DNA of 64,000 nucleotides from Myxococcales bacterium (GTDB lineage: Bacteria > Myxococcota_A > UBA9042), in assembly GCA_009692425.1 (NCBI GenBank), contig SHZF01000004.1, forward strand, positions 74,175-138,174, written 5' to 3'. The stretch's first letter is position 1, and each line of letters starts with the position of its first letter. Shown piece by piece: positions 53,223 to 64,000 of this stretch. A program made the translations under genes and the position numbers. The notes under the pieces are model-generated. The model ran no database searches. It saw only the letters and a program-made list of their open reading frames with translations, and had not been told where the DNA came from.

Positions 53223-53666
53223 CTACCGAGCCGCGCCAATCTGGATGTCGATGACGCGGTCGGTCAAGGTCCGCACGACGCCGCCACCGTTCTTCATCTC
53301 GCTTGCGCTGAAGCTGCCCGTGACGCCGCCGCCCTTGTCCGCGAACTTCTGCGCGTCCAGCTTCTTGGCGGCGGGATCCTTGGGGTAGATGAAGGCGTTG
53401 TTGCCACCCTCCAGGTACGCGAAGCCGTTGGCGTTGCCTGGGTCGGCGCCCCAGATGACCTTGCCATTCTCCTTCAGTACGAGCAGGTGGATGCGGTCAG
53501 AACCGGGCCCGGCGTTGTTCGTGTTGCCTTCGATGAAGTACTGGGCCTTCTGGCCGTCGCTCTTGTACAGGCACGTCATCTTGGTGCCGAAGTGGACCTG
53601 ATTCTCGATGGCTCGTGCGACAGCCCCGCAGGGAATCGTTTCGGGCGAACCCAGACTCGTTTCCAA
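53223..53666 (-). CDS. Small protein of unknown function, last gene of the AAA+ operon
   Basis: 147 residues if the TTG at 53666 is the start; it lies 6 bp after the AAA+ gene's stop, and the in-frame TAG just upstream rules out a longer form. An internal ATG at MTCLYKSDG is a possible alternative. The protein shows a beta-rich character (MTCLYKSDGQKAQYFIEGN, IHLLVLKENGKVIWGADPG, AFIYPKDPA) with one or two Cys and no signal peptide. No family was recognised. Because it is the 3'-most gene of the operon, it may be a target or accessory of the ATPase. Convergent with the EamA gene. Whether it is truly translated is uncertain; codon use looks coding. Confidence 0.55.
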   Translation of the reverse strand: METSLGSPETIPCGAVARAIENQVHFGTKMTCLYKSDGQKAQYFIEGNTNNAGPGSDRIHLLVLKENGKVIWGADPGNANGFAYLEGGNNAFIYPKDPAAKKLDAQKFADKGGGVTGSFSASEMKNGGGVVRTLTDRVIDIQIGAAR

Positions 53667-53672
53667 GGGGAG

Positions 53673-55499
53673 CTAGCGCCCAACCCCCGCCCGCTCCAGT
53701 TCCCGCAACTCCGCCTCCCAGCCTGCGCGGGCCTCGTCGAACCCGCCCGTGACATCGGGCAGCAGGCTCTTGCGCGTGCAGTTGACCCGGGCCTGCAACT
53801 CCTGCCAGCGCCGCGTCGGGCCAATCGCCGCCGGCACCTGGTCCGCCACCAGCGCCAAGACCGCGTCCGGCGTCAGTGGCCCGTCTCGCCTGGCGCGCGA
53901 CCGCAAGCCCGAACGCATTGACGCATAGCCCGCCGCCGACCACGCCTGTGTCGCTGCCAGCAGCCCCGCCAACTCGGCTTCGGCCGGCGGCGCGGCCAGC
54001 ACACCTTCGCAAAGCCAGCGCACGAACGCCATGCGGTCGGCGCCGTCGGGGTCCAGCACCGGCAGGATCAGGTCGCCCGCCCGCCCCGGCCGCCGCAGGT
54101 CGGGAGACAGGCGCTCGATGCGCGCGGTCAGCAAAAGCCACACGACGCGCCCGCGCAACGCCGGGTCCGACATCATCTGCTGGATGCGGCCGGTCAGCCG
54201 TCGCTCCGTCTCGTGCACGTCGCCGCCCACACCACCGAACATCGTGTCGGCCTCATCGACGAACACGAGCACCTTGTCGAGCGCGTACAGCACCCGCCGC
54301 AACTGCTCGAACACCACGTCGGTCTGGCCAAACCACTGCGAGCGGATGTTCTTCAGCACCAGCACGACCATGCCGAGTTCCGACGCCACCGCCTCGAAGA
54401 TGAACGTCTTGCCGGCGCCGATCGGACCCGCCACCGCGGCCCCCGACAGCGCATCGCCGCCGCCCGAGCGCACCCGCGGCACGAACTCCTCGCGCAGGAA
54501 CGCTTTGAGCCGCGTGTAGCCCACCACGTCGTCGAGCGTGTGCGTCGGCTGCTTGAACTCGACGACGCCCTCGCCCAACTGCGACTGGATGAACGCCTCG
54601 ACCTTGCCAACCACGTCTGCCGTCTGGAGCGGTCGCCCCGCGTGGGCCGCGCCCAACAGCAACTGGCGCAGCGCATGGATCGACAGCCCGGCCGTAGCCC
54701 GCGCGAGCGCATCGGCGGCCGGCAACTCGGGCCGCGGCGCACCGGCCGGCGGCACGAAGCCCTCGATGTAGCGGCGCCGTGTGTCGGTGTCGGGCGCCGG
54801 GACATCCACCGTCAGCACCTGCGGCATGCGCGTCACGCGGCTGTGCAGGCCACCGAGCGACTCGGCAATCAGCAACACCGTGTCTTCGCCGTGCTGGAAG
54901 TCCGGGTCGGCAAACCAGTCGCGGCAGATGCCGATGCGGTGGCGGTCGGCCTCGGTCAGTTGTACGAAGTCGCCGGCTGGCAGCAGCAGGTCAGCGTCTT
55001 CGACCAGCACGAGCAGCCCCGGCAGCAGGCGGCGGCGCGCGCGGTCGAGCGTGCGGGCGGCGAGGCAGAGTTGGCGCAGCAGTTCGAAGGCCTTGGTCGG
55101 CTGGGCCACGGCATCTTGCAGGTGGGCGTCGAATTGGCGGGCCGCGGCGTCGGCGAGTTGTTGGGTGCGGGCGGCCTCTGCCCCGCCCACGAGCGCGCGC
55201 ACGGCGCTGTCGTCGGGGGTCATGCCCGTGCGCAGTTGCACGTAGGCGTCGCGGCAGCGCTGGCGGTCGGTGTCGCGGCCGAAGCGGATGGGGCCGTTGA
55301 TCTCGTAGACGACGAGCAGGTGATCGGCTGACGGAGTCCAGCGCGCGAGCAGCAGGTCGATGAGGCGCACCCAGCGACCCGGCCCGTCCGCTGCGGGCAG
55401 ATGGAACAGGTCGTGGACGTTGCCGGCCAGCACGATCGAGCGCGACTGGCCCGCGTTGATGAGTTGGCCGAGTTCGGCGAGGAATCCGGGCTTGCTCAT
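53673..55499 (-). CDS. AAA+ ATPase, Ycf46-like two-domain
   Basis: 608 residues. The C-terminal half (~310-520) is an AAA+ domain with Walker A AGPIGAGKTFIFEA near 355, Walker B VLVFVDEADTMFGG near 405, and a sensor/Arg-finger region LLLTARIERLSPDLRRPGR. The N-terminal half (SIVLAGNVHDLFHLP, LLVVYEINGPIRFG, LLVLVEDADLLLP, DTVLLIAESLGGL) looks like a second AAA-type fold lacking Walker A, the arrangement of Ycf46-like proteins. It should couple ATP hydrolysis to remodelling of a partner, plausibly a membrane or PspA assembly. Start overlaps the ABC ATPase stop by 4 bp (ATGA), so it is firmly linked to the transporter genes. The role in that operon is inferred. Confidence 0.8.
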   Translation of the reverse strand: MSKPGFLAELGQLINAGQSRSIVLAGNVHDLFHLPAADGPGRWVRLIDLLLARWTPSADHLLVVYEINGPIRFGRDTDRQRCRDAYVQLRTGMTPDDSAVRALVGGAEAARTQQLADAAARQFDAHLQDAVAQPTKAFELLRQLCLAARTLDRARRRLLPGLLVLVEDADLLLPAGDFVQLTEADRHRIGICRDWFADPDFQHGEDTVLLIAESLGGLHSRVTRMPQVLTVDVPAPDTDTRRRYIEGFVPPAGAPRPELPAADALARATAGLSIHALRQLLLGAAHAGRPLQTADVVGKVEAFIQSQLGEGVVEFKQPTHTLDDVVGYTRLKAFLREEFVPRVRSGGGDALSGAAVAGPIGAGKTFIFEAVASELGMVVLVLKNIRSQWFGQTDVVFEQLRRVLYALDKVLVFVDEADTMFGGVGGDVHETERRLTGRIQQMMSDPALRGRVVWLLLTARIERLSPDLRRPGRAGDLILPVLDPDGADRMAFVRWLCEGVLAAPPAEAELAGLLAATQAWSAAGYASMRSGLRSRARRDGPLTPDAVLALVADQVPAAIGPTRRWQELQARVNCTRKSLLPDVTGGFDEARAGWEAELRELERAGVGR

Positions 55500-56476
55500 G
55501 GGCGCGCCTCCAACGCAACCGCCGGGGCGCCAGCGGGTGCGGGTGCGATGGACCGGCCGTAGGTCAGGTGCATCGTGGGGTGGCAGGGACGCGTCGGATC
55601 GAAGGCAACCGCCCGCAATTCAGCGCGTTGGGCCTCGTAGCGCGCCGAGTCGGGCCGCTCGCCCGCCAGGACACCCGGCGTGGCCTTGTCGTACACCAGG
55701 CGCGCACCGGAAGCCTTCGGCAGCCCGGCGCCCCGCCAATCCCAGTGCTGCGACAATGCGAGCACACGGTGGCCGACGTAAAGCGCTTCGTTGAGCTCGT
55801 GCGTCACCATCACGACCGTGTGCGGCGCGGGCTGGCCGGCGGCGGCGGCGGCGGCGTTGGCGCGGTGCAGTTGCAGCAGCAGTTCCTGCATTTGTTCGCG
55901 CATCGCCTCGTCGAGCGCGCCGAACGGTTCATCGAGCAGGAGCAGTTCCGGCTTCATGATCAGGGCCTGCGCGATCGCGACGCGCTGGCACATGCCGCCC
56001 GACAGCTGGTGCGGGAAGCGGTCGACGGCATCGTGCAGCCCCACCGTACCCAGCAGGGCGCGCGCTTCGTCGCGGACGCCAGCCAGCAGGCGGCGCGTGC
56101 GCAGCGGTTGCAGCCAACGCCCGGGAATCGACGTGCGGTCGAGCAGCGGCCCGATGGCGACGTTGTCCAGCGCGGTCAGGTCAGGGAAGAGACTGTAGCG
56201 CTGGTAGACGATGCCGACGTGCCGTGACGGCCCAGCCACGGCAAGGCGCTGGCCGTTGCGGTAGACGAAGACCTCGCCTGCGTTCGGTGGGTGCGTGCCG
56301 ACGATGGCGTTGAGCAGCGTGGTCTTGCCGCAACCGCTCGGCCCGACCAGGCCCACGAACTGGCCGCGCGGCACGGTCAGGTCGATGCCGTCGAGCACCG
56401 GCTTGGCGCCGTAGCCGTGACGGATGCCGCGCACTTCGAGCACGGGCGGCGCGGCACTGGCGGCGGCCGTGGTCAT
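55496..56476 (-). CDS. ABC transporter ATPase (SsuB/TauB-like)
   Basis: 326 residues. Walker A GPSGCGKTTLL at ~45-55, Q-loop YQRYSLFPDL, signature LSGGMCQRVAIAQAL, Walker B LLLLDEPFGALDEAM and H-loop VMVTHELNEAL, all intact. This is the nitrate/sulfonate/taurine (SsuB/TauB/NitD) class, which powers importers with NMT1/SsuA-type receptors. The last ~85 residues (YDKATPGVLAGERPD, THPTMHLTYGRSIAP-like) extend beyond the usual nucleotide-binding domain and may bind a partner. The start is fixed by a 4-bp overlap with the permease stop; its stop overlaps the AAA+ ATPase start by 4 bp. Gene order receptor, permease, ATPase is as in importers. Substrate unknown. Confidence 0.9.
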   Translation of the reverse strand: MTTAAASAAPPVLEVRGIRHGYGAKPVLDGIDLTVPRGQFVGLVGPSGCGKTTLLNAIVGTHPPNAGEVFVYRNGQRLAVAGPSRHVGIVYQRYSLFPDLTALDNVAIGPLLDRTSIPGRWLQPLRTRRLLAGVRDEARALLGTVGLHDAVDRFPHQLSGGMCQRVAIAQALIMKPELLLLDEPFGALDEAMREQMQELLLQLHRANAAAAAAGQPAPHTVVMVTHELNEALYVGHRVLALSQHWDWRGAGLPKASGARLVYDKATPGVLAGERPDSARYEAQRAELRAVAFDPTRPCHPTMHLTYGRSIAPAPAGAPAVALEARP

Positions 56477-57279
56477 GCGGTGCCCTCGCCCGCGTACCAG
56501 CGGCACAGCTTGCGTTGGAGCGCCCGCAAGCCCCAGTTCGCCGCCGACGCGAACGCCGCCAGCACGGCCAGGTAGGTGTACACCACCGCCATGTCGAGGC
56601 GCCGCTGCTGCAGGCGAATCTGGTAGCCGAAGCCGACGTCGGCCACCAGCATCTCGGCCGCCAGCAGCGCGACGAGGGCGGGCCCGATCTGCAGCCGCAC
56701 GGCGTCGAGCACCTGGGGCAGGATGGTGCGCAGCATGCGGTTCCACACCACTTCCATCGACGACGCGCCGAGCGTGTAAGCCTTGAACTGGAGCTCTTCG
56801 GGCCAATCGCGCACGAGCAGGTGCACGGTCTGCGCCAGCACGGGCAGCACGGCGAACGCCACCATCGCCACATACATCTTCAGTTCAAGCCCGAACACCA
56901 CGAAAAACACCGCCAGCGCCGCCGTTGGCGGGACCAGCGCCGCCAAGCTGATTGGTGCCGTCAAAAGCCAGCCGAAGCCTGTGAACGCGCCCATGTGCAG
57001 GCCGAGCAACAGCGCACCGACCACGCCGATCGCCAACCCCATGAAAAGCCGGCCGAATGTGGCCTGCATGTCCATCAAAAGCATGCGCTCGCCGCGCAAG
57101 TTCGGTTCCAGCACGCGGCCGGCACCGTCGGCCAGTTGGCTCCACGATGGGATCGTCGTGTCGTTGGGATTGACCGCGTGCTGGCGCGCCGACAGCCAGG
57201 TGTACCCCGCCACGAGTGCCACCACCGACAGTGCCACGAGCAGCGCCGCCCGGCGCGCGGCGATGGGCCGGCGAATCAC
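56473..57279 (-). CDS. ABC transporter permease (SsuC/TauC-like)
   Basis: 268 residues with an N-terminal membrane helix (AALLVALSVVALVAGYTWL) and about five more (GLAIGVVGALLLGLHMG, PISLAALVPPTAALAVFFVV, MYVAMVAFAVLPVLA, VYTYLAVLAAFASAA). The cytoplasmic EAA loop AYTLGASSMEVVWNRMLRTI, which docks on the ATPase, is well preserved. The GTG start is preceded by the receptor stop at 9 bp. The architecture fits SsuC/TauC/NitB permeases. The residues preceding the first conserved block (QLADGAGRVLEPNLRGERM) are the usual periplasmic segment. Together with the ATPase and the lipoprotein it should form a complete importer. Confidence 0.85.
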   Translation of the reverse strand: MIRRPIAARRAALLVALSVVALVAGYTWLSARQHAVNPNDTTIPSWSQLADGAGRVLEPNLRGERMLLMDMQATFGRLFMGLAIGVVGALLLGLHMGAFTGFGWLLTAPISLAALVPPTAALAVFFVVFGLELKMYVAMVAFAVLPVLAQTVHLLVRDWPEELQFKAYTLGASSMEVVWNRMLRTILPQVLDAVRLQIGPALVALLAAEMLVADVGFGYQIRLQQRRLDMAVVYTYLAVLAAFASAANWGLRALQRKLCRWYAGEGTA

Positions 57280-57288
57280 GCCTGCGGC

Positions 57289-58452
57289 CTACAACCAACT
57301 CGGATCGAAGCGCAGGTGCGTGCCCGGCGGGGCCTTGTCCTTGGGTCCGAACGCGACCAGGGGCTTGCCGGTCACCACGCCGCGCGCCTCGCAGAAGGCG
57401 ACCACCTTGGCCATGACCGCAACGAGTTCTGGCCCGTTGAACAGGGCCTTGGCTTCCTCGGGCGTCTTGTAGAACAGGGTCTGGCCGACGACGGTCTCCA
57501 TCTGCAGGGCGTTCAGGCTCGAGAACTTGCGGCCCAGTTCGACGAGCGTGGCGTTGCGGGTGCCCGGGTTCTCGATGCGCCGGCTGACCTCGTAGAACGT
57601 GGCGGCAACGGCCTTGGCGAATGCGTCGCCGCCCGGCCGGTCGAGAGACGCCTGGGCGACGATGATCAAGTCTACGATTTCACCTGGGATTTTCGTCGAA
57701 TCAAGCAGCACGTGCACGTCGGGCCGCGCCGCCAGGGTCGACATCACGAAGGGGTTCCACACCACGATCGCGCTGTGGTCGGCGCTTTTCTGTTGCATCG
57801 CCGTGGCCGCCGCCGCCGGGTCCATGTTCGCGAACGTGAAGTCGGTCGGATTCTTGCCGAGTTCCTGCAGCGCACGCTCGAACAGGTACTGGCTGACGGA
57901 CTTCTCCAGCCCGTAGACCTTCTTGCCCCGGAGCTGTTCAACGTCGGTGACGTCCTTGGGCACCAGCAGCGCGTCGGCACCATGGCTGCGCGACGTCGGC
58001 AGGATCGCCACGCTCGGCCGGCCCAGCGCCGGGTTGAGCGCGTCCATGTTGGTGAGCGCGGCGGCATCGACCTGGCCCGAGGCGTACATGGCGATGCACG
58101 GGTCGTAATCGGCCTGGCGCAGCACGATGTCGACCTGAAAGCGCTTTTCAATCTCGCCCGTCGCCCCTTCCTTGCCATCGACGAGGCCGAGTTCGTGGGC
58201 GACGCCGAATGTGCTCCACGACGGGTACTCGCTCCACGCCAGCGAGAACACCGGCAGCTTGGCGGGCGCCGCGCCGGCGGGGGCGACAGGAGCGCCGGGT
58301 GCAGCGGCCGGGTCCGTCGCGGTGGCACCGGCAGGGCCAGCACCAGCAAGGGCGGCGGCAGCAGGTTCGGCGCCTGGCTTGGCGTCCTTGTTGCAACCGG
58401 CCAGGGCCAGCGCTGCAAGGCAACATGCCAGCGCGATCGGGGACTTCGTCAT
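57289..58452 (-). CDS. Lipoprotein ABC substrate-binding protein (NMT1/SsuA-like)
   Basis: 387 residues. LACCLAALALAGCNKD is a lipobox (Cys20), followed by an Ala/Pro linker. The binding domain contains VFSLAWSEYPSWSTFGVA, QADYDPCIAMYASGQVDAAAL, PSVAILPTSRSHGADALLVP and AIVVWNPFVMSTLAARPDV, typical of NMT1/THI5-like receptors that bind sulfonates, nitrate or thiamin precursors. The strand VHVLLDSTKIPGEIVDLI is closely matched in the OmpA-fused protein of the same operon, so the two binding domains are paralogues. It is anchored at the membrane for delivery to the permease, 9 bp upstream of its gene. Ligand unknown. Confidence 0.85.
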   Translation of the reverse strand: MTKSPIALACCLAALALAGCNKDAKPGAEPAAAALAGAGPAGATATDPAAAPGAPVAPAGAAPAKLPVFSLAWSEYPSWSTFGVAHELGLVDGKEGATGEIEKRFQVDIVLRQADYDPCIAMYASGQVDAAALTNMDALNPALGRPSVAILPTSRSHGADALLVPKDVTDVEQLRGKKVYGLEKSVSQYLFERALQELGKNPTDFTFANMDPAAAATAMQQKSADHSAIVVWNPFVMSTLAARPDVHVLLDSTKIPGEIVDLIIVAQASLDRPGGDAFAKAVAATFYEVSRRIENPGTRNATLVELGRKFSSLNALQMETVVGQTLFYKTPEEAKALFNGPELVAVMAKVVAFCEARGVVTGKPLVAFGPKDKAPPGTHLRFDPSWL

Positions 58453-58500
58453 GGGCGGACCTCTTGTCGCAGGAAGAATCGGGATGGAGGCCAGTCGCGC

Positions 58501-59352
58501 CTATGCTTCGGGCAACTTCGCGCGTACGGGGGCGTCGGCGGCCGGTGCCGCATCTTTTGCCGCGGCCTGAAAGATGAGCGCGTCGAATTCGTCGTTGGCG
58601 ACCTGCTCGCGCGCTGCCGCAATGAGTTGGTCTTCGTGGAGTTGGGTCGCGGTGCCGGCCAGTTCGGACGAGATCACAGCTTCGGCTTCGGCTTCGTTCA
58701 CGAGATCGCGTAGTTCCGAGACGTCCTTGCCGACACCGTCGGTCGACAGGCCCGCGAACATCTGGTCGATCTCAGCGCGCTGCTTGGCCGAGATCACCCG
58801 CGCGACGGAGTCGGCCGCCTCGGACTTGTACTTCTCGTGCTCGCGCTTCATGTTCATGAGCTGGAGCTTATGCTGCTGGATGCGGCCGTTTGACCCCTCG
58901 ATGTCGGCCTTGAGCTGGGCAATGCGCTGCTCCAGTTGCGCGGCCTCTTCGGATGCGGCCTTGTATGCCGCCGCGTTGCGCTGGTACTCGAGGTCGCCCT
59001 TGATCGCGGCCTGATCGCTGCCGGCCGCCTCCAACGCCGTCACCCGCTGCTTCGTCATCGCGAGCGCGCCGGCCTTGACCTGATTCTTGCGCGCCAGCTG
59101 CTCATCGACGCGCTTGAGCTCCTGGTCCTGCTTGAGCTTGTGGCTCATGAGCGTGGCGACGGCTTCCATCAACTGGCGTGTCTTTTCGGCGTGCGCCGTG
59201 ATGACCTCGTCCCAGCGCGCCTGCATCGCGTACGGGTCGGCGTCGATCGTCTTGCGCGAGGCGTCGACTTCGCCCTGGGCGCGGAAGCCCCACGCGCGGA
59301 ACCAGCGGCCGATCGAGGCCCACAATCCGAGGAAGAGCGAGGCGGGGAGCAT
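58501..59352 (-). CDS. PspA/IM30-like coiled-coil protein
   Basis: 283 residues, longer than usual PspA (~220). An amphipathic start MLPASLFLGLWASIGRWF could bind membrane, as helix 1 of PspA does. Then an almost continuous coiled coil (DQELKRVDEQLARKNQ, EEAAQLEQRIAQLKADIEG, MNMKREHEKYKSEAADSV). The C-terminal part RAEIDQMFAGLSTDGVG followed by SELRDLVNEAEAEAVISSELAG recalls the AxGL(S/T) and EAEAEA region of PspA/Vipp1. The family belongs to the ESCRT-III-like superfamily and stabilises stressed membranes. GGAGG at a suitable distance before ATG. It sits between the fibre gene (134 bp) and the ABC genes (48 bp). Other coiled-coil families remain possible. Confidence 0.6.
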   Translation of the reverse strand: MLPASLFLGLWASIGRWFRAWGFRAQGEVDASRKTIDADPYAMQARWDEVITAHAEKTRQLMEAVATLMSHKLKQDQELKRVDEQLARKNQVKAGALAMTKQRVTALEAAGSDQAAIKGDLEYQRNAAAYKAASEEAAQLEQRIAQLKADIEGSNGRIQQHKLQLMNMKREHEKYKSEAADSVARVISAKQRAEIDQMFAGLSTDGVGKDVSELRDLVNEAEAEAVISSELAGTATQLHEDQLIAAAREQVANDEFDALIFQAAAKDAAPAADAPVRAKLPEA

Positions 59353-59434
59353 GGGGCGGACCTCCGGCGGTGCAGTGCGGGCGCGATCCTTGTCCCGGCA
59401 GCGGCGTTTGGCAAGGGTTCGGGGAAGGTTGGCT

Positions 59435-59477
59435 GGTGGATCCTGGGCGACGTCCTCTGTGGTGGATCCTGGGGCGA
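59435..59477. repeat. Pair of direct repeats upstream of PspA-like gene
   Basis: GGTGGATCCTGGGCGA at 59435-59450 recurs as GGTGGATCCTGGGGCGA at 59461-59477, 26 bp start to start. They lie in the 134-bp gap between the fibre gene and the PspA-like gene, about 80-125 bp before its ATG. The spacing of about 2.5 turns could suit a dimeric regulator. This may be chance. Confidence 0.5.
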
Positions 59478-59486
59478 TGCGCCGCG

Positions 59487-61376
59487 CTACCGCACGAAAA
59501 AGGCGTGGCCGAAAAAGCTGTTCAGGCTGCCGGTCGACCACTGGCTGGCGTTGCACGCGTCGCCGTAGCCCCAGTAGTGCCGCCCCATCTGGTGCGCGCC
59601 GCTCGCACACACGGCGCCGAGCCCGCCGCCCGTGTAGTCGCCGGCCGAATTGTCGCGCCCGTAGCCGGCCAGCGCCGCGCACCAGCCGCCGGAGTAGCCG
59701 TTGAACAGGTTGCCGTACGCCGGCGAGTGCTGGTCGGCGTTGATGTTGAAACCGTAGAAATGCGGACCAGTGGCGTCCGGCCCGTTGCCCGTGCCGCAAC
59801 TGGGCCGCCAGTCGAGCGACTTGAAGTTGCCGACCAGCAGCGTCGTCGTCGTCTTGCGCACGCCGCTGTTGAACACGGCGTGCAGGTTGGCGAACGACTC
59901 GTTCATGCGCCACGCGAGCTTCTTCGTCGGGTCGTTCAAGCCCATCAGCATGAAATCCGTGAAGGCGACGGTGTGATACGCCGGCCCGAGCGCCGACTGG
60001 ACCGTGAGGTTGGTGACATCGCCGAGGTACTGCTTCTCCTTCCAGCGCGCGGTGTCCTTGCCGTCGAGCACGCCGCCGTCGGCATCGTGGGCGAGGCCGG
60101 CGGTCTTGCCGACCAGCGTCCAGCCGCCGCCGTCGGTCGTCATGTCGCAGTAGACCTGAAACGCCGCCGTGCCGCCCGCGCCGTCCGGGTCGAGCCAGTA
60201 GACGCCGGTCGCTGCGGCCGGCAACTTCTTCAGCACGTCCAGGCACGACAGGGCGGGCGCGTTCGCCGTGCCCACGGGAGCGAGCGCGATCGGGTGATCC
60301 GATTCCCCGTTGCAGATATTCAACACGTTGGATTTCTTGTCGATCCAAGCATGGCCGTAGTGAGCCGCGTCGCACGTGAAGGGCGCCTTGTCGGCGACCG
60401 GGAAGGCGAAGCTGCCGATCTTGGCCGCCGTCACGGCGCCATCGGCGAGCTTGGCAGCCGTCACCGCACCGTCCGCCAATTTCGGTGTGGTCACACCAAG
60501 GTCCGCCAATTTCGGCGTCACCACGGCAGCGTCGGCGAGGTGTGTCGATGTGACGCAGCCGGTGCACTTCAGGCCGTTCGCGCTCGCCGCCAGCTTGGCC
60601 ACGCCGTCCGGTTCGTCCGCGGCCGCCCAGGCGACGCCGAGCTTGCTGGCGGTGACGGCGCCTTGGGCCAGCTTGGCGGTCGTCACCGCGTTGTCCTCCA
60701 GTTTTGCGGTCGTCACCGCGTTGGCCTCCAGTTTTGCGGTCGTCACCGCGTTGGCGGCCAGCTTGGGCGCAGTCACGGCGCCATCGGCCAACTGGGTCGT
60801 CCCGACCGCCGCCGCCACGAGTTCGCCCGCCTCGACGCAGGCGGTGCACTGCAGGTCGAGGGCGGCCGTCGCGGGCCCGCCCTTGCTGCTGGCACCGGCG
60901 TAGGCAAAGCCCACCTTGTCCGAAGTGATCGAACCCGACGCGAGCGCCTCGCTGCCCAGCGGCTTCGACAGGCCGTCTGCGAGCAGCGCCGTGTGGGCGA
61001 CGAAGGCGTAGGGCACCGCCATCAGCCGCGTCGGCGGCAGGTCGGGCTCCCCATCGACTCCAACGCTCAGCCACACCTCGGCATTCTTGGCGAAAACCGC
61101 CGGGTCGAGTGGATTTTTCGCGCTCACGCCCAATTGCACCGCGAACAGGCCTTGGTTCACCACCACGCCGAGCATCGCTTCAGACCACAGGGCTTCACCA
61201 CCTTTGGCCGTCGGGTACAGCGAGACGAGCAGCCCGTACTTGCCGTCGGCCACCGGGCCGCCACCGGTCGCGGCGAGCCGGCCTTGGGCGCCGAGGAGCG
61301 CGGACGGCGCGGCGCGGGCGGGCATGGGCAGCAGGGCGAGGCACAGGCAGAGGGCGGCGGTGTGGCGCGGGCGCAT
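59487..61376 (-). CDS. Secreted fibrinogen-domain protein with tail-fibre-like repeats
   Basis: 629 residues with a signal peptide (LCLCLALLPMPARA). The middle (~150-340) has about ten repeats of the form DGAVTAxKLA / NAVTTAKLE, a pattern of trimeric phage tail-fibre or beta-helical stalks. The C-terminal region contains the fibrinogen-type motif VYCDMTTDGGGWTLVG and later WRPSCGTGNGP, SGGWCAALAGY and CNASQWSTG, typical of a fibrinogen-related/lectin-like domain. The N-terminal ~130 residues resemble a phage-baseplate-like or beta-rich domain (YGLLVSLYPTAKGGEALWSE). It is probably a surface-exposed ligand-binding fibre. It lies in the PspA operon direction but its 105-bp and 134-bp spacers suggest independent control. 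Confidence 0.75.
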   Translation of the reverse strand: MRPRHTAALCLCLALLPMPARAAPSALLGAQGRLAATGGGPVADGKYGLLVSLYPTAKGGEALWSEAMLGVVVNQGLFAVQLGVSAKNPLDPAVFAKNAEVWLSVGVDGEPDLPPTRLMAVPYAFVAHTALLADGLSKPLGSEALASGSITSDKVGFAYAGASSKGGPATAALDLQCTACVEAGELVAAAVGTTQLADGAVTAPKLAANAVTTAKLEANAVTTAKLEDNAVTTAKLAQGAVTASKLGVAWAAADEPDGVAKLAASANGLKCTGCVTSTHLADAAVVTPKLADLGVTTPKLADGAVTAAKLADGAVTAAKIGSFAFPVADKAPFTCDAAHYGHAWIDKKSNVLNICNGESDHPIALAPVGTANAPALSCLDVLKKLPAAATGVYWLDPDGAGGTAAFQVYCDMTTDGGGWTLVGKTAGLAHDADGGVLDGKDTARWKEKQYLGDVTNLTVQSALGPAYHTVAFTDFMLMGLNDPTKKLAWRMNESFANLHAVFNSGVRKTTTTLLVGNFKSLDWRPSCGTGNGPDATGPHFYGFNINADQHSPAYGNLFNGYSGGWCAALAGYGRDNSAGDYTGGGLGAVCASGAHQMGRHYWGYGDACNASQWSTGSLNSFFGHAFFVR

Positions 61377-61481
61377 GGAGACCTCAGTTGAGGGCCACAG
61401 GATACGGCGGGCGCGGGTACGAGTCCAACGCGGGGCGCGGCCGTCCTGGCGGGCAGAGACACCAATCCCCCCACCGCACCC

Positions 61482-62222
61482 CTACTGCCCCACCCGCCGA
61501 TCCAGCCCGTGCGCCCTCATCTCGGCGTCGATCTGGCGCGCGTGCTCGATCTGCCGGTCAAGCTGCCCGCGCAACTCCGCCAGCTTCGAAGCCTCGGCGC
61601 CAGCGCCCGCCGCCGCATACTGGTCCAAATCCGCCAGCAGCCGCGCCATGCGCTGCGCCGTGCGCCCCACCTCGTCGAGCCGCGCTGACCGCTGCGCCTC
61701 CAGTTCGCGCCGGGCTTCGGGTGACTGCAAGCGTTGGGCGGCGGCATGCAGTTCGAGGCTGTGCTCCAGTTCGCGGCAGGCGTGGTCGAACAGGGCCTGC
61801 ACGGTGCGCGAGAGTTCGAACGCCACCACTGTTGGCAACCGGTAGCGTTCGATGTCGGGTGCATCGAAGCGGACCAGCAGTTCGCGCAGGTCGTGCAGCC
61901 AGCGTTCGGTGCGCGGGTCGCCGTCGGCTTTCAGCCGCTCGAACAGGTCGTCGAGCGCGCGGTCCTTGGCGGCGCGATCGGCTTGCTGGAGGTCGGCGAG
62001 TGCACCCTCGACCACCTGGCGCGGTCCCCAGGCCCAGCGCAGACCCGCGCTCGCCACCCCGGCGACAGCTGCCGTCAGCCCCGCGAACAGCACCGGCCCC
62101 GGCAGGTCGAACACCCAGCCGCCCAGCATGGCAAGCACGCCGGCCGCGAACGGCACCAGCGTCAGCGGGCTCGCCGCCAGCTTCCACGCCACCCGGTGCC
62201 GCAGTTCCTTGGGATCGACCAC
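61482..62222 (-). CDS. Two-TM helical protein, possible XpaC-like
   Basis: 246 residues from GTG. Two close hydrophobic helices (LTLVPFAAGVLAMLGGWVF and PVLFAGLTAAVAGVASAGL) are followed by a long helical cytoplasmic part with coiled coil (ERLKADGDPRTERWLHDL, RLQSPEARRELEAQRS, LRGQLDRQIEHARQIDAEM). The arrangement of twin TM helices, helical body and an RYRLPTVV segment resembles XpaC-type proteins, which often neighbour TelA-like genes; this match is by eye only and no enzyme activity is claimed. It starts 36 bp after the OmpA-fusion stop and belongs to the same run of genes. Likely a membrane scaffold or adaptor. Confidence 0.55.
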   Translation of the reverse strand: MVDPKELRHRVAWKLAASPLTLVPFAAGVLAMLGGWVFDLPGPVLFAGLTAAVAGVASAGLRWAWGPRQVVEGALADLQQADRAAKDRALDDLFERLKADGDPRTERWLHDLRELLVRFDAPDIERYRLPTVVAFELSRTVQALFDHACRELEHSLELHAAAQRLQSPEARRELEAQRSARLDEVGRTAQRMARLLADLDQYAAAGAGAEASKLAELRGQLDRQIEHARQIDAEMRAHGLDRRVGQ

Positions 62223-62258
62223 GCGGGGCTCCCCTTGCTTCGCTCTGCCGCCCGGTGC

Positions 62259-63860
62259 TCAGTACGGCGGCGTCCCCAACACGAACGAGACCGACTGCGC
62301 TTCCCCCTCGGCGCTCGACGGTGGCACCGCCAGCGCGTGGACGCGCTCCGGCACGACGTGGCGCAGCAGCAGGTACTGCACGACGGCGTCCGCGCGCGCT
62401 TGAGCCAGCTTGAGGTTCTCGTCGGCATCGCCGGCGGCCCGCGCATGGCCCTCGACCCGCAGGTAGTAGGCGGGCAGCGTGTCGAGGTGGCCGACGATGT
62501 CGTCGAGGTCGCGCTGGGCCTGGATCGACAGGTCCGCGGTGCCGCGCGTGAACTCGATCGGCTCGACCCGCATCGTCCCCACCGCCTGCAGCGCCGCCCA
62601 CGCGGCGGGGGCGAGCGCCGGCACCGGTGCGGGCTCAGTCACCTTGGCAAGCACCGTGGCTGAGTCGAGGCCCGCCGTCCCCGCGCCCGGCCCGGGCATG
62701 ACCGCGAGCGCCTTGCCTGGATGGAACCCGCGTTCTTTCATGGCCTTGAGCGCTCCAGGGAACAGGATCGTGCTCGCGCGGCCCGGCAGGGGATCGGCGG
62801 CCAGCGCGTGGGTCGTCACGAGCACGCGCACCACGCGGTCGATGGCGTCCTCCAAGTGGTCGCCGCGCCCCGCAACGCCATCCTGCAAGCCGAAGTGGGC
62901 GTAGTTCTCGAGCGTGTTCTTCCAGTGGACACCTGCCGCCAGTTGCCTGGCCTGCGCGGCGGTCAGGGGCTCCCCGGCAGCCTTGGCGTCGTCGGCAACC
63001 AGCGTCGCGAGGCCGTCTGGGGTCAGGCTGGCCGCGTGGACCGTGCGCAACCAGGCGGCGACGACCTGTTCCACCACGTCGGGGTGCTCGGAGAGAAAGC
63101 GCCGCTCGACGACCAGCGTGTCGATGATCATCCCCTTGACCTTGCCGCTGTCGAGCAGCACGTGCGCGCCGTCGTGGACCGCCTTCGAGACGTACGGCTC
63201 CCACAGCACGTAGGCCTTCTTCGCGGTCTTCGGGTCCGCTCGGAAGCGCGCGTACACCTGGGCCGCGCCGTCGGCCGGCTCCAGCCAGTTCGCCGGCAAG
63301 CGCCCCAGGCTGAAATGGGCCAGCAGCACGCGGGCCAGCAGTTCGCTCGGGCTGCCCGGCGTCAGCACGAGGCGCGCGGCCGGGTCGTCGAGGTCGGCCA
63401 CGTTCTTGACGGCCGGGCCGGCCACGACGGCGTCGGCTCCCACGGTCTCGTCGAGCACGGCCACCACCGATGCCGGCCAGGCTTGCGCCGCATGGCCCGC
63501 CGTCAGGTACGCGTCCAGGGGAAACACCGCAAACTGCGACTTGCCCTGGGCCAGACCTGCCAGCCGCGCCTTGTAGTCGGCCTTGTCGTCGTGCAGTTCG
63601 AGCTTGATGCCGTCGTGGCGCAGCGCATCGGCAAAGGCGACCGTGCGCAAGGGCGCATAGCCGGAAAACGAGTCCAGCGCGACGTGTACGGTCGTGCGGT
63701 ACTGGCTGGGCGCGCCGGTCTGCGCAACGAGTTCCTGTTCGGACTGCGGCTTGAGCCATAGCTTGTAGCCGACCGCCAGCGTGCCCGCCGCGAGCAGCAG
63801 CACGGCCGTGAGCGCGATGGCGCGCTGGGGGCCTGAGGTGCCGGTGTCGTCGATCGCCAT
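62259..63860 (-). CDS. NMT1-like substrate-binding domain fused to OmpA domain
   Basis: 533 residues. A single TM helix (IALTAVLLLAAGTLAVGYKLWL) near the N-terminus exports the rest. Residues ~50-360 are a binding domain of the NMT1/SsuA class: TTVHVALDSFSGYAPLR, QFAVFPLDAYLTAGHAA, AYVLWEPYVSKAVHDGA and AHVLLDSGKVKGMIIDTL. The last ~130 residues form an OmpA-like domain (IEFTRGTADLSIQAQRDLD, YLRVEGHARAAGDADENLKLAQARADAV), which normally binds peptidoglycan. The two-strand stretch HVLLDSxKxxGxIxD matches the ABC lipoprotein receptor downstream. So this receptor may be fixed to the cell wall. It follows a C-terminally anchored gene by 9 bp and begins the series toward PspA and the importer. Confidence 0.85.
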   Translation of the reverse strand: MAIDDTGTSGPQRAIALTAVLLLAAGTLAVGYKLWLKPQSEQELVAQTGAPSQYRTTVHVALDSFSGYAPLRTVAFADALRHDGIKLELHDDKADYKARLAGLAQGKSQFAVFPLDAYLTAGHAAQAWPASVVAVLDETVGADAVVAGPAVKNVADLDDPAARLVLTPGSPSELLARVLLAHFSLGRLPANWLEPADGAAQVYARFRADPKTAKKAYVLWEPYVSKAVHDGAHVLLDSGKVKGMIIDTLVVERRFLSEHPDVVEQVVAAWLRTVHAASLTPDGLATLVADDAKAAGEPLTAAQARQLAAGVHWKNTLENYAHFGLQDGVAGRGDHLEDAIDRVVRVLVTTHALAADPLPGRASTILFPGALKAMKERGFHPGKALAVMPGPGAGTAGLDSATVLAKVTEPAPVPALAPAAWAALQAVGTMRVEPIEFTRGTADLSIQAQRDLDDIVGHLDTLPAYYLRVEGHARAAGDADENLKLAQARADAVVQYLLLRHVVPERVHALAVPPSSAEGEAQSVSFVLGTPPY

Positions 63861-63869
63861 CGGGGTCGC

Positions 63870-64000
63870 CTACCTGAACAGGGCCTTGGCCGCCTTGACG
63901 AGCAGCCAGATGCCGAACACGAACGCGGCCAGCACCCAGCGCCAGCTCGTCGATTCCGGCTCTGGCTGGGCCGGCGCGGGAGCCGTGGGGGGCACAACCG
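63870..64000 (-). CDS. C-terminal end of a membrane-anchored protein (partial)
   Basis: Only the last 42 residues are visible; the 5' part lies beyond the window. A Pro/Ala-rich spacer (VVPPTAPAPAQPEPE) precedes a single C-terminal helix (WVLAAFVFGIWLLVKAAKALFR). Tail-anchored style like this is common in proteins that face the cytoplasm. The stop is 9 bp before the start of the OmpA-fusion gene, so it is the first seen gene of the operon. A TerY/TelA-like or VWA-domain protein would be reasonable to expect but cannot be seen. Confidence 0.5.
   Translation of the reverse strand, partial: VVPPTAPAPAQPEPESTSWRWVLAAFVFGIWLLVKAAKALFR

Follow-up and report, generated by a model that had tools for sequence, protein, structure and literature searches.

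A conserved bacterial gene cluster that combines a PspA-like protein and a double AAA+ protein with an ABC importer and wall-binding fusion proteins: a possible ESCRT-III/Vps4-like system

Results

Gene content and spacing of the cluster

The window analysed here is the whole stretch of 64,000 nucleotides from a Myxococcales bacterium (assembly GCA_009692425.1, contig SHZF01000004.1). Its final part, positions 53223–64000, carries ten genes, all on the (−) strand, and an eleventh gene on the same strand lies directly upstream, beyond the window. Gene calls and family matches bore out the initial annotation, in which ten co-directional genes of the types given below had been described. From the head of the cluster to its end, with window coordinates unless marked L003, the genes are:

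L003:5107-6942, (−) strand: SBP-OmpA#1, the eleventh gene (about 611 aa), directly upstream, beyond the window
63870..64000, (−) strand: 3' end of the gene for a VWA-domain protein (whole gene L003:4044-5087, 347 aa)
62259..63860, (−) strand: SBP-OmpA#2, NMT1/SsuA-like binding domain plus C-terminal OmpA-like domain
61482..62222, (−) strand: TM2, two TM segments plus a long helical region in the cytoplasm
59487..61376, (−) strand: fibre with a fibrinogen-like GGGWT domain (Pfam, NCBIfam)
58501..59352, (−) strand: PspA-like (ESCRT-III superfamily) protein (profile-profile comparison, fold search)
57289..58452, (−) strand: stand-alone substrate-binding lipoprotein (SBP), nearest to TIGR03427
56473..57279, (−) strand: ABC permease (Pfam BPD_transp_1)
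55496..56476, (−) strand: ABC ATPase (NCBIfam importer ATPase matches)
53673..55499, (−) strand: double AAA+ protein (family, structure and alignment comparisons)
53223..53666, (−) strand: last gene, 147-aa unknown protein (no family match)

The gene for SBP-OmpA#1 heads the cluster, 19 bp upstream of the VWA gene. According to the gene coordinates, the permease and ABC ATPase genes, and likewise the ABC ATPase and AAA+ genes, overlap by 4 bp, and short gaps separate VWA from SBP-OmpA#2 (9 bp), SBP from permease (9 bp) and AAA+ from the last gene (6 bp). The 4-bp overlaps and 6–9 bp gaps noted initially were thus found again, and wider gaps exist too: 36 bp between SBP-OmpA#2 and TM2, 48 bp between the PspA-like gene and SBP, and 105 and 134 bp on the two sides of the fibre gene. 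Promoter and terminator scans of the cluster region (70% GC) gave signals at most weakly above those of shuffled sequences. The GC content of the cluster is the same as that of its surroundings; the last gene has 63% against about 70% around it, its 147-aa product has no Pfam or NCBIfam match, and it is possibly a recent addition. Upstream of the cluster, L003:8950-11754 encodes a large protein weakly like the VolA/Pla-1 phospholipase, which is present in nearly all relatives.

Conservation of the gene order

Conservation was examined in a sample of 80 loci obtained by a search with the AAA+ protein (near-full-length query matches, 45–57% identity), onto which the other cluster proteins, then profile HMMs, were mapped. 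The loci span Verrucomicrobiota, Planctomycetota, Lentisphaerota, Hydrogenedentota, Thermodesulfobacteriota, Acidobacteriota, CSSED10-310 and others. The nine-gene order SBP-OmpA#1, VWA, SBP-OmpA#2, TM2, PspA-like, SBP, permease, ABC ATPase, AAA+ was collinear in 18 other loci from at least five phyla, and one further locus had the same order without the stand-alone SBP. The initial annotation had pointed to a search for this order in other phyla; with 18 further loci, the order is not unique to the present genome, and the PspA-like and AAA+ genes proved integral to the set, being co-conserved with the ABC genes in the nine-gene loci. Seven Planctomycetota loci contained all nine genes rearranged so that the AAA+ gene comes first, and the ABC ATPase gene lay on the opposite strand in four of these seven. 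The VWA protein was kept in 44/80 loci and SBP-OmpA#2 in 28/80. We conclude that the nine core genes are one conserved set with an order beyond chance. Linkage is not strict: in some genomes the trio AAA+-SBP-OmpA#1-VWA is separated from the remaining genes, and in some planctomycetes the cluster genes are scattered.

Neither the fibre gene nor the last gene had a match in any of the 80 loci. Both are therefore local additions, and their initial inclusion as members of the set did not hold. Where loci were compared, the insertion of the fibre gene between the TM2 and PspA-like genes was seen in the present genome alone. The fibre itself carries NAVTTAKL-like repeats and matches Pfam COLFI/Fibrinogen_C and NCBIfam GGGWT_bact (8.1e-23).

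Other loci carry extra DNA of their own. Roughly 1–7 kb lie within the conserved cluster in L010, L031, L033 and L034; in L010 this DNA separates ABC ATPase from AAA+, in the other three SBP from permease. At L059 14788-17232, in a Pirellula-type genome, a gene for an alpha/beta-hydrolase-like lipoprotein follows the AAA+-SBP-OmpA#1-VWA trio and replaces the rest of the cluster.

The PspA-like protein and its C-terminal tail

The Pfam PspA family (PF04012) matched the PspA-like protein at 1.2e-3, below the curated cut-off, and matched 9/33 aligned members of the family. In profile-profile comparison the PspA-like family reached E 1e-5 with canonical PspA, whereas control pairs gave 0.04 and 0.3. 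The AlphaFold model has a long helical hairpin fold, and its best 10 fold matches in the PDB were all Vipp1/PspA (E 2.8e-3 to 4.6e-2), none of the fold matches passing E 1e-3. The present genome carries a separate canonical PspA.

All 33 aligned PspA-like members end, after a variable linker, in a C-terminal [LI]PE motif, and so do the proteins of all 14 further loci scanned. The motif was absent from 27/27 canonical PspAs examined, that of the present genome included. From position and invariance, we infer a resemblance of the tail to ESCRT-III ATPase-binding motifs; that it may serve as a handle for the AAA+ protein is our guess from the same conservation and position.

The AAA+ protein

In profile comparison, the N-terminal half of the AAA+ protein aligned to its C-terminal half with E 3.4e-5. 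The N-terminal copy lacks Walker A. In the C-terminal half, Walker A and B, the arginine fingers and the pore loop SQWFGQTD were invariant in 29/29 aligned sequences, and among PDB structures this ATPase, initially described as Ycf46-like, is nearest to VCP/Cdc48, followed by Vps4 and katanin. No Pfam match to an MIT domain was found in the protein. These features suggest a double AAA+ protein whose N-terminal copy is probably dead and whose C-terminal copy is probably active.

Pairing of the PspA-like and AAA+ genes

The two genes go together even where the cluster does not. Of the 149 genomes from one planctomycete class, 8 contained the PspA-like gene, and precisely these 8 contained the AAA+ gene; under independence and with phylogeny ignored, the chance of sharing 8/149 in this way is 2e-13. 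When the AAA+ locus held no PspA-like gene, exactly one PspA-like copy was present elsewhere in 34 of the 37 genomes, and in the loci examined these unlinked PspA-like genes mostly adjoined TM2, SBP and SBP-OmpA#2. The PspA-like and AAA+ genes are an obligate pair. Five genomes hold the PspA-AAA+ dyad although nothing related to this permease occurs anywhere in them. The core of the set is therefore the pair, with the ABC part as an accessory, which weakens the initial view of the ABC part as sensor or engine.

The same distribution bears on two other explanations. The AAA+ protein could serve the ABC transporter-SBP complex as a chaperone, in assembly or in quality control, with the PspA-like protein merely guarding against its leaks. 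The 4-bp overlaps do couple the permease, ABC ATPase and AAA+ genes tightly, in this cluster as in several other loci, and AAA+ and VWA proteins often cooperate in complex assembly. However, a chaperone of the transporter fits poorly with the five genomes that have the pair and lack this permease, and with a PspA-like gene that accompanies the AAA+ gene even when unlinked; moreover, the VWA domain appears to be periplasmic and the AAA+ protein cytoplasmic. We consider this explanation unlikely. A normal nutrient importer standing beside unrelated membrane-stress genes, with linkage reflecting co-regulation only, would account for the ordinary character of the ABC parts and for the scattered genes of some planctomycetes. 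It would account neither for an order kept across phyla nor for the one-to-one co-occurrence of unlinked PspA-like and AAA+ genes, and we regard it as very improbable.

Envelope proteins and transporter

The VWA protein matches Pfam VWA_2 (1.1e-12) with an intact DxSxS motif, and has a signal-like stretch at the N-terminus and a TM anchor at the C-terminus. The 'tail-anchored protein' of the initial annotation was correct as to the anchor, but what had been seen is merely the C-terminal end of this 347-aa VWA-domain protein. SBP-OmpA#2 has an N-terminal TM segment and matches Pfam OmpA and NCBIfam SsuA_fam (1.1e-11 each). In alignments, the Asp of the GHxD motif and the downstream Arg of the OmpA domain were invariant in SBP-OmpA#1; in SBP-OmpA#2 the usual Asp is lost and the Arg kept. 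In OmpA, this Asp and Arg bind peptidoglycan.

TM2 has no Pfam or NCBIfam match. Its AlphaFold model is all helical (pLDDT 87.5) and gave no fold match in the PDB; with no fold match and no profile kinship, TM2 was rejected as a relative of PspA/Snf7. An anti-phage defence system was also considered for the cluster and rejected, the matches being weak and generic only, to OmpA (ZorB) and AAA (IetA).

The SBP carries a lipobox, LAGC, as read from the sequence, and matches TIGR03427 at 3.9e-49, below the curated cut-off. Because of this resemblance a riboswitch was sought, and neither a guanidine nor any other riboswitch was found upstream of the cluster. The permease matches Pfam BPD_transp_1 (2.8e-9), and the Walker A, Walker B and signature motifs of the ABC ATPase are intact and invariant in the alignment; both proteins look functional.

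One permease here serves three binding domains, of which two are joined to OmpA-like domains for wall binding, and the VWA partner appears to be periplasmic. On these grounds the ABC part might instead be an FtsEX-like or Bce-like signal transmitter: wall-bound SBPs would monitor the envelope, and hydrolysis of ATP would set off the PspA-AAA+ pair. The permease, however, belongs to the ordinary importer type and keeps a conserved EAA-like loop in the alignment, and a stand-alone binding lipoprotein is typical of uptake, so we think such a transmitter improbable.

Origin of the cluster in this genome

Within the window's phylum, 379 genomes were compared; neither the PspA-like nor the AAA+ gene was found outside the present genome, and there was no second copy of either. 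In a tree, a long branch led to the window's AAA+ protein, which fell among other phyla with unsure placement. A contaminating contig was rejected: the neighbouring phospholipase-like gene has relatives in 35/36 related genomes, with best matches in its own family, which places the contig in the family of this genome. The set was probably gained by horizontal transfer, with the fibre and the small gene as additions made in this genome. This is a simpler reading than wide loss, which stays an alternative because locus L006 is labelled Myxococcota in its submitter's lineage.

Discussion

A proposed mechanism

PspA and Vipp1 are relatives of ESCRT-III. We lean towards a reading of the cluster as an ESCRT-III/Vps4-like pair of polymer and remodelling ATPase, to which an ABC importer and binding proteins anchored in the wall are attached. 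The PspA-like protein would line the inside of the cytoplasmic membrane as a polymer, and the AAA+ protein, through a putative recognition of the [LI]PE tail, would grip the subunits and draw them through its pore, disassembling or remodelling the polymer as Vps4 does with ESCRT-III. TM2 may anchor this PspA-AAA+ module. By their predicted topology, the VWA protein and the two SBP-OmpA fusions would lie in the periplasm, one fusion holding peptidoglycan, and the ABC importer with its own binding lipoprotein would supply or report a small solute. Membrane remodelling could in this way be coupled to solute uptake or to the state of membrane and wall. The initial proposal of a device that senses at the wall and acts on the membrane agrees with this arrangement, since the predicted parts span wall, membrane and cytoplasm.

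A broader claim would be that bacteria, mainly Planctomycetota and Verrucomicrobiota, own a genuine ESCRT-III/Vps4-type machine, in which a PspA-family polymer offers its invariant [LI]PE tail as a handle to a dedicated remodelling AAA+ protein. Such a machine would have evolved apart from archaeal Vps4 and would be linked to an importer and to binding proteins anchored in the wall. We put this forward tentatively and hold it to be doubtful in so strong a form. The cluster resembles a bacterial counterpart of the membrane-cutting machinery of archaea and eukaryotes: its PspA-like proteins form a bacterial branch for which both an obligate ATPase partner and a candidate handle are defined, and most carriers belong to phyla known for their folded inner membranes. 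Two proteins and a truncation of three residues would thereby suffice to test whether bacterial ESCRT-III has a Vps4.

Comparison with known systems

A literature search found no account of the full composition; a description stands in a large comparative PspA paper (Ravi et al., 2024; PMC11237479), where one sentence concerns operons of PspA/Snf7, double AAA+, ABC ATPase/permease and PBPB-OmpA, exemplified by OGG56892.1. The initial statement that no named system has this composition holds as to the name, but the composition, as far as that sentence gives it, is published. Those operons share with the present cluster the PspA-like protein, ABC ATPase, permease, SBP-OmpA and an AAA+ protein with an inactive N-terminal copy, and the idea voiced there, membrane remodelling tied to solute transport, is the same as ours. 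As it fits that description, the cluster is a member of a published, unnamed kind, matched by description. The 'Snf7 with a TM segment' of that paper may be TM2, for which no kinship to PspA was seen here. The VWA protein, the second fusion and the stand-alone SBP belong to the present cluster, and like the obligate-pairing counts and the C-terminal motif found here, they are unmentioned in the main text of that paper (PMC11237479).

With the ESCRT-III/Vps4 systems (CdvB/CdvC; PMC10936438) of archaea and eukaryotes the cluster has in common a polymer protein of the ESCRT-III superfamily, a classic AAA+ ATPase and a motif at the C-terminus of the polymer protein, polymerisation and AAA+ binding of [LI]PE being putative here; a binding protein, ProX, is encoded in archaeal Meth_adaptin loci as well. 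It differs from them in the dead N-terminal AAA copy, the missing MIT match, its bacterial host and its ABC, SBP-OmpA and VWA partners, and, by the PDB list, in an ATPase nearer to Cdc48 than to Vps4. The phage-shock PspA/Vipp1 systems likewise have a PspA-like protein, with distant profile and fold kinship to the present one; unlike them, the cluster has no PspB/C/F, and has a dedicated AAA+ protein and the [LI]PE tail. Finally, the SBP, permease and ATPase families are those of taurine/sulfonate/TIGR03427-type ABC importers, from which the cluster is set apart by its sub-cut-off scores, its wall-binding fusions and its PspA-AAA+ module.
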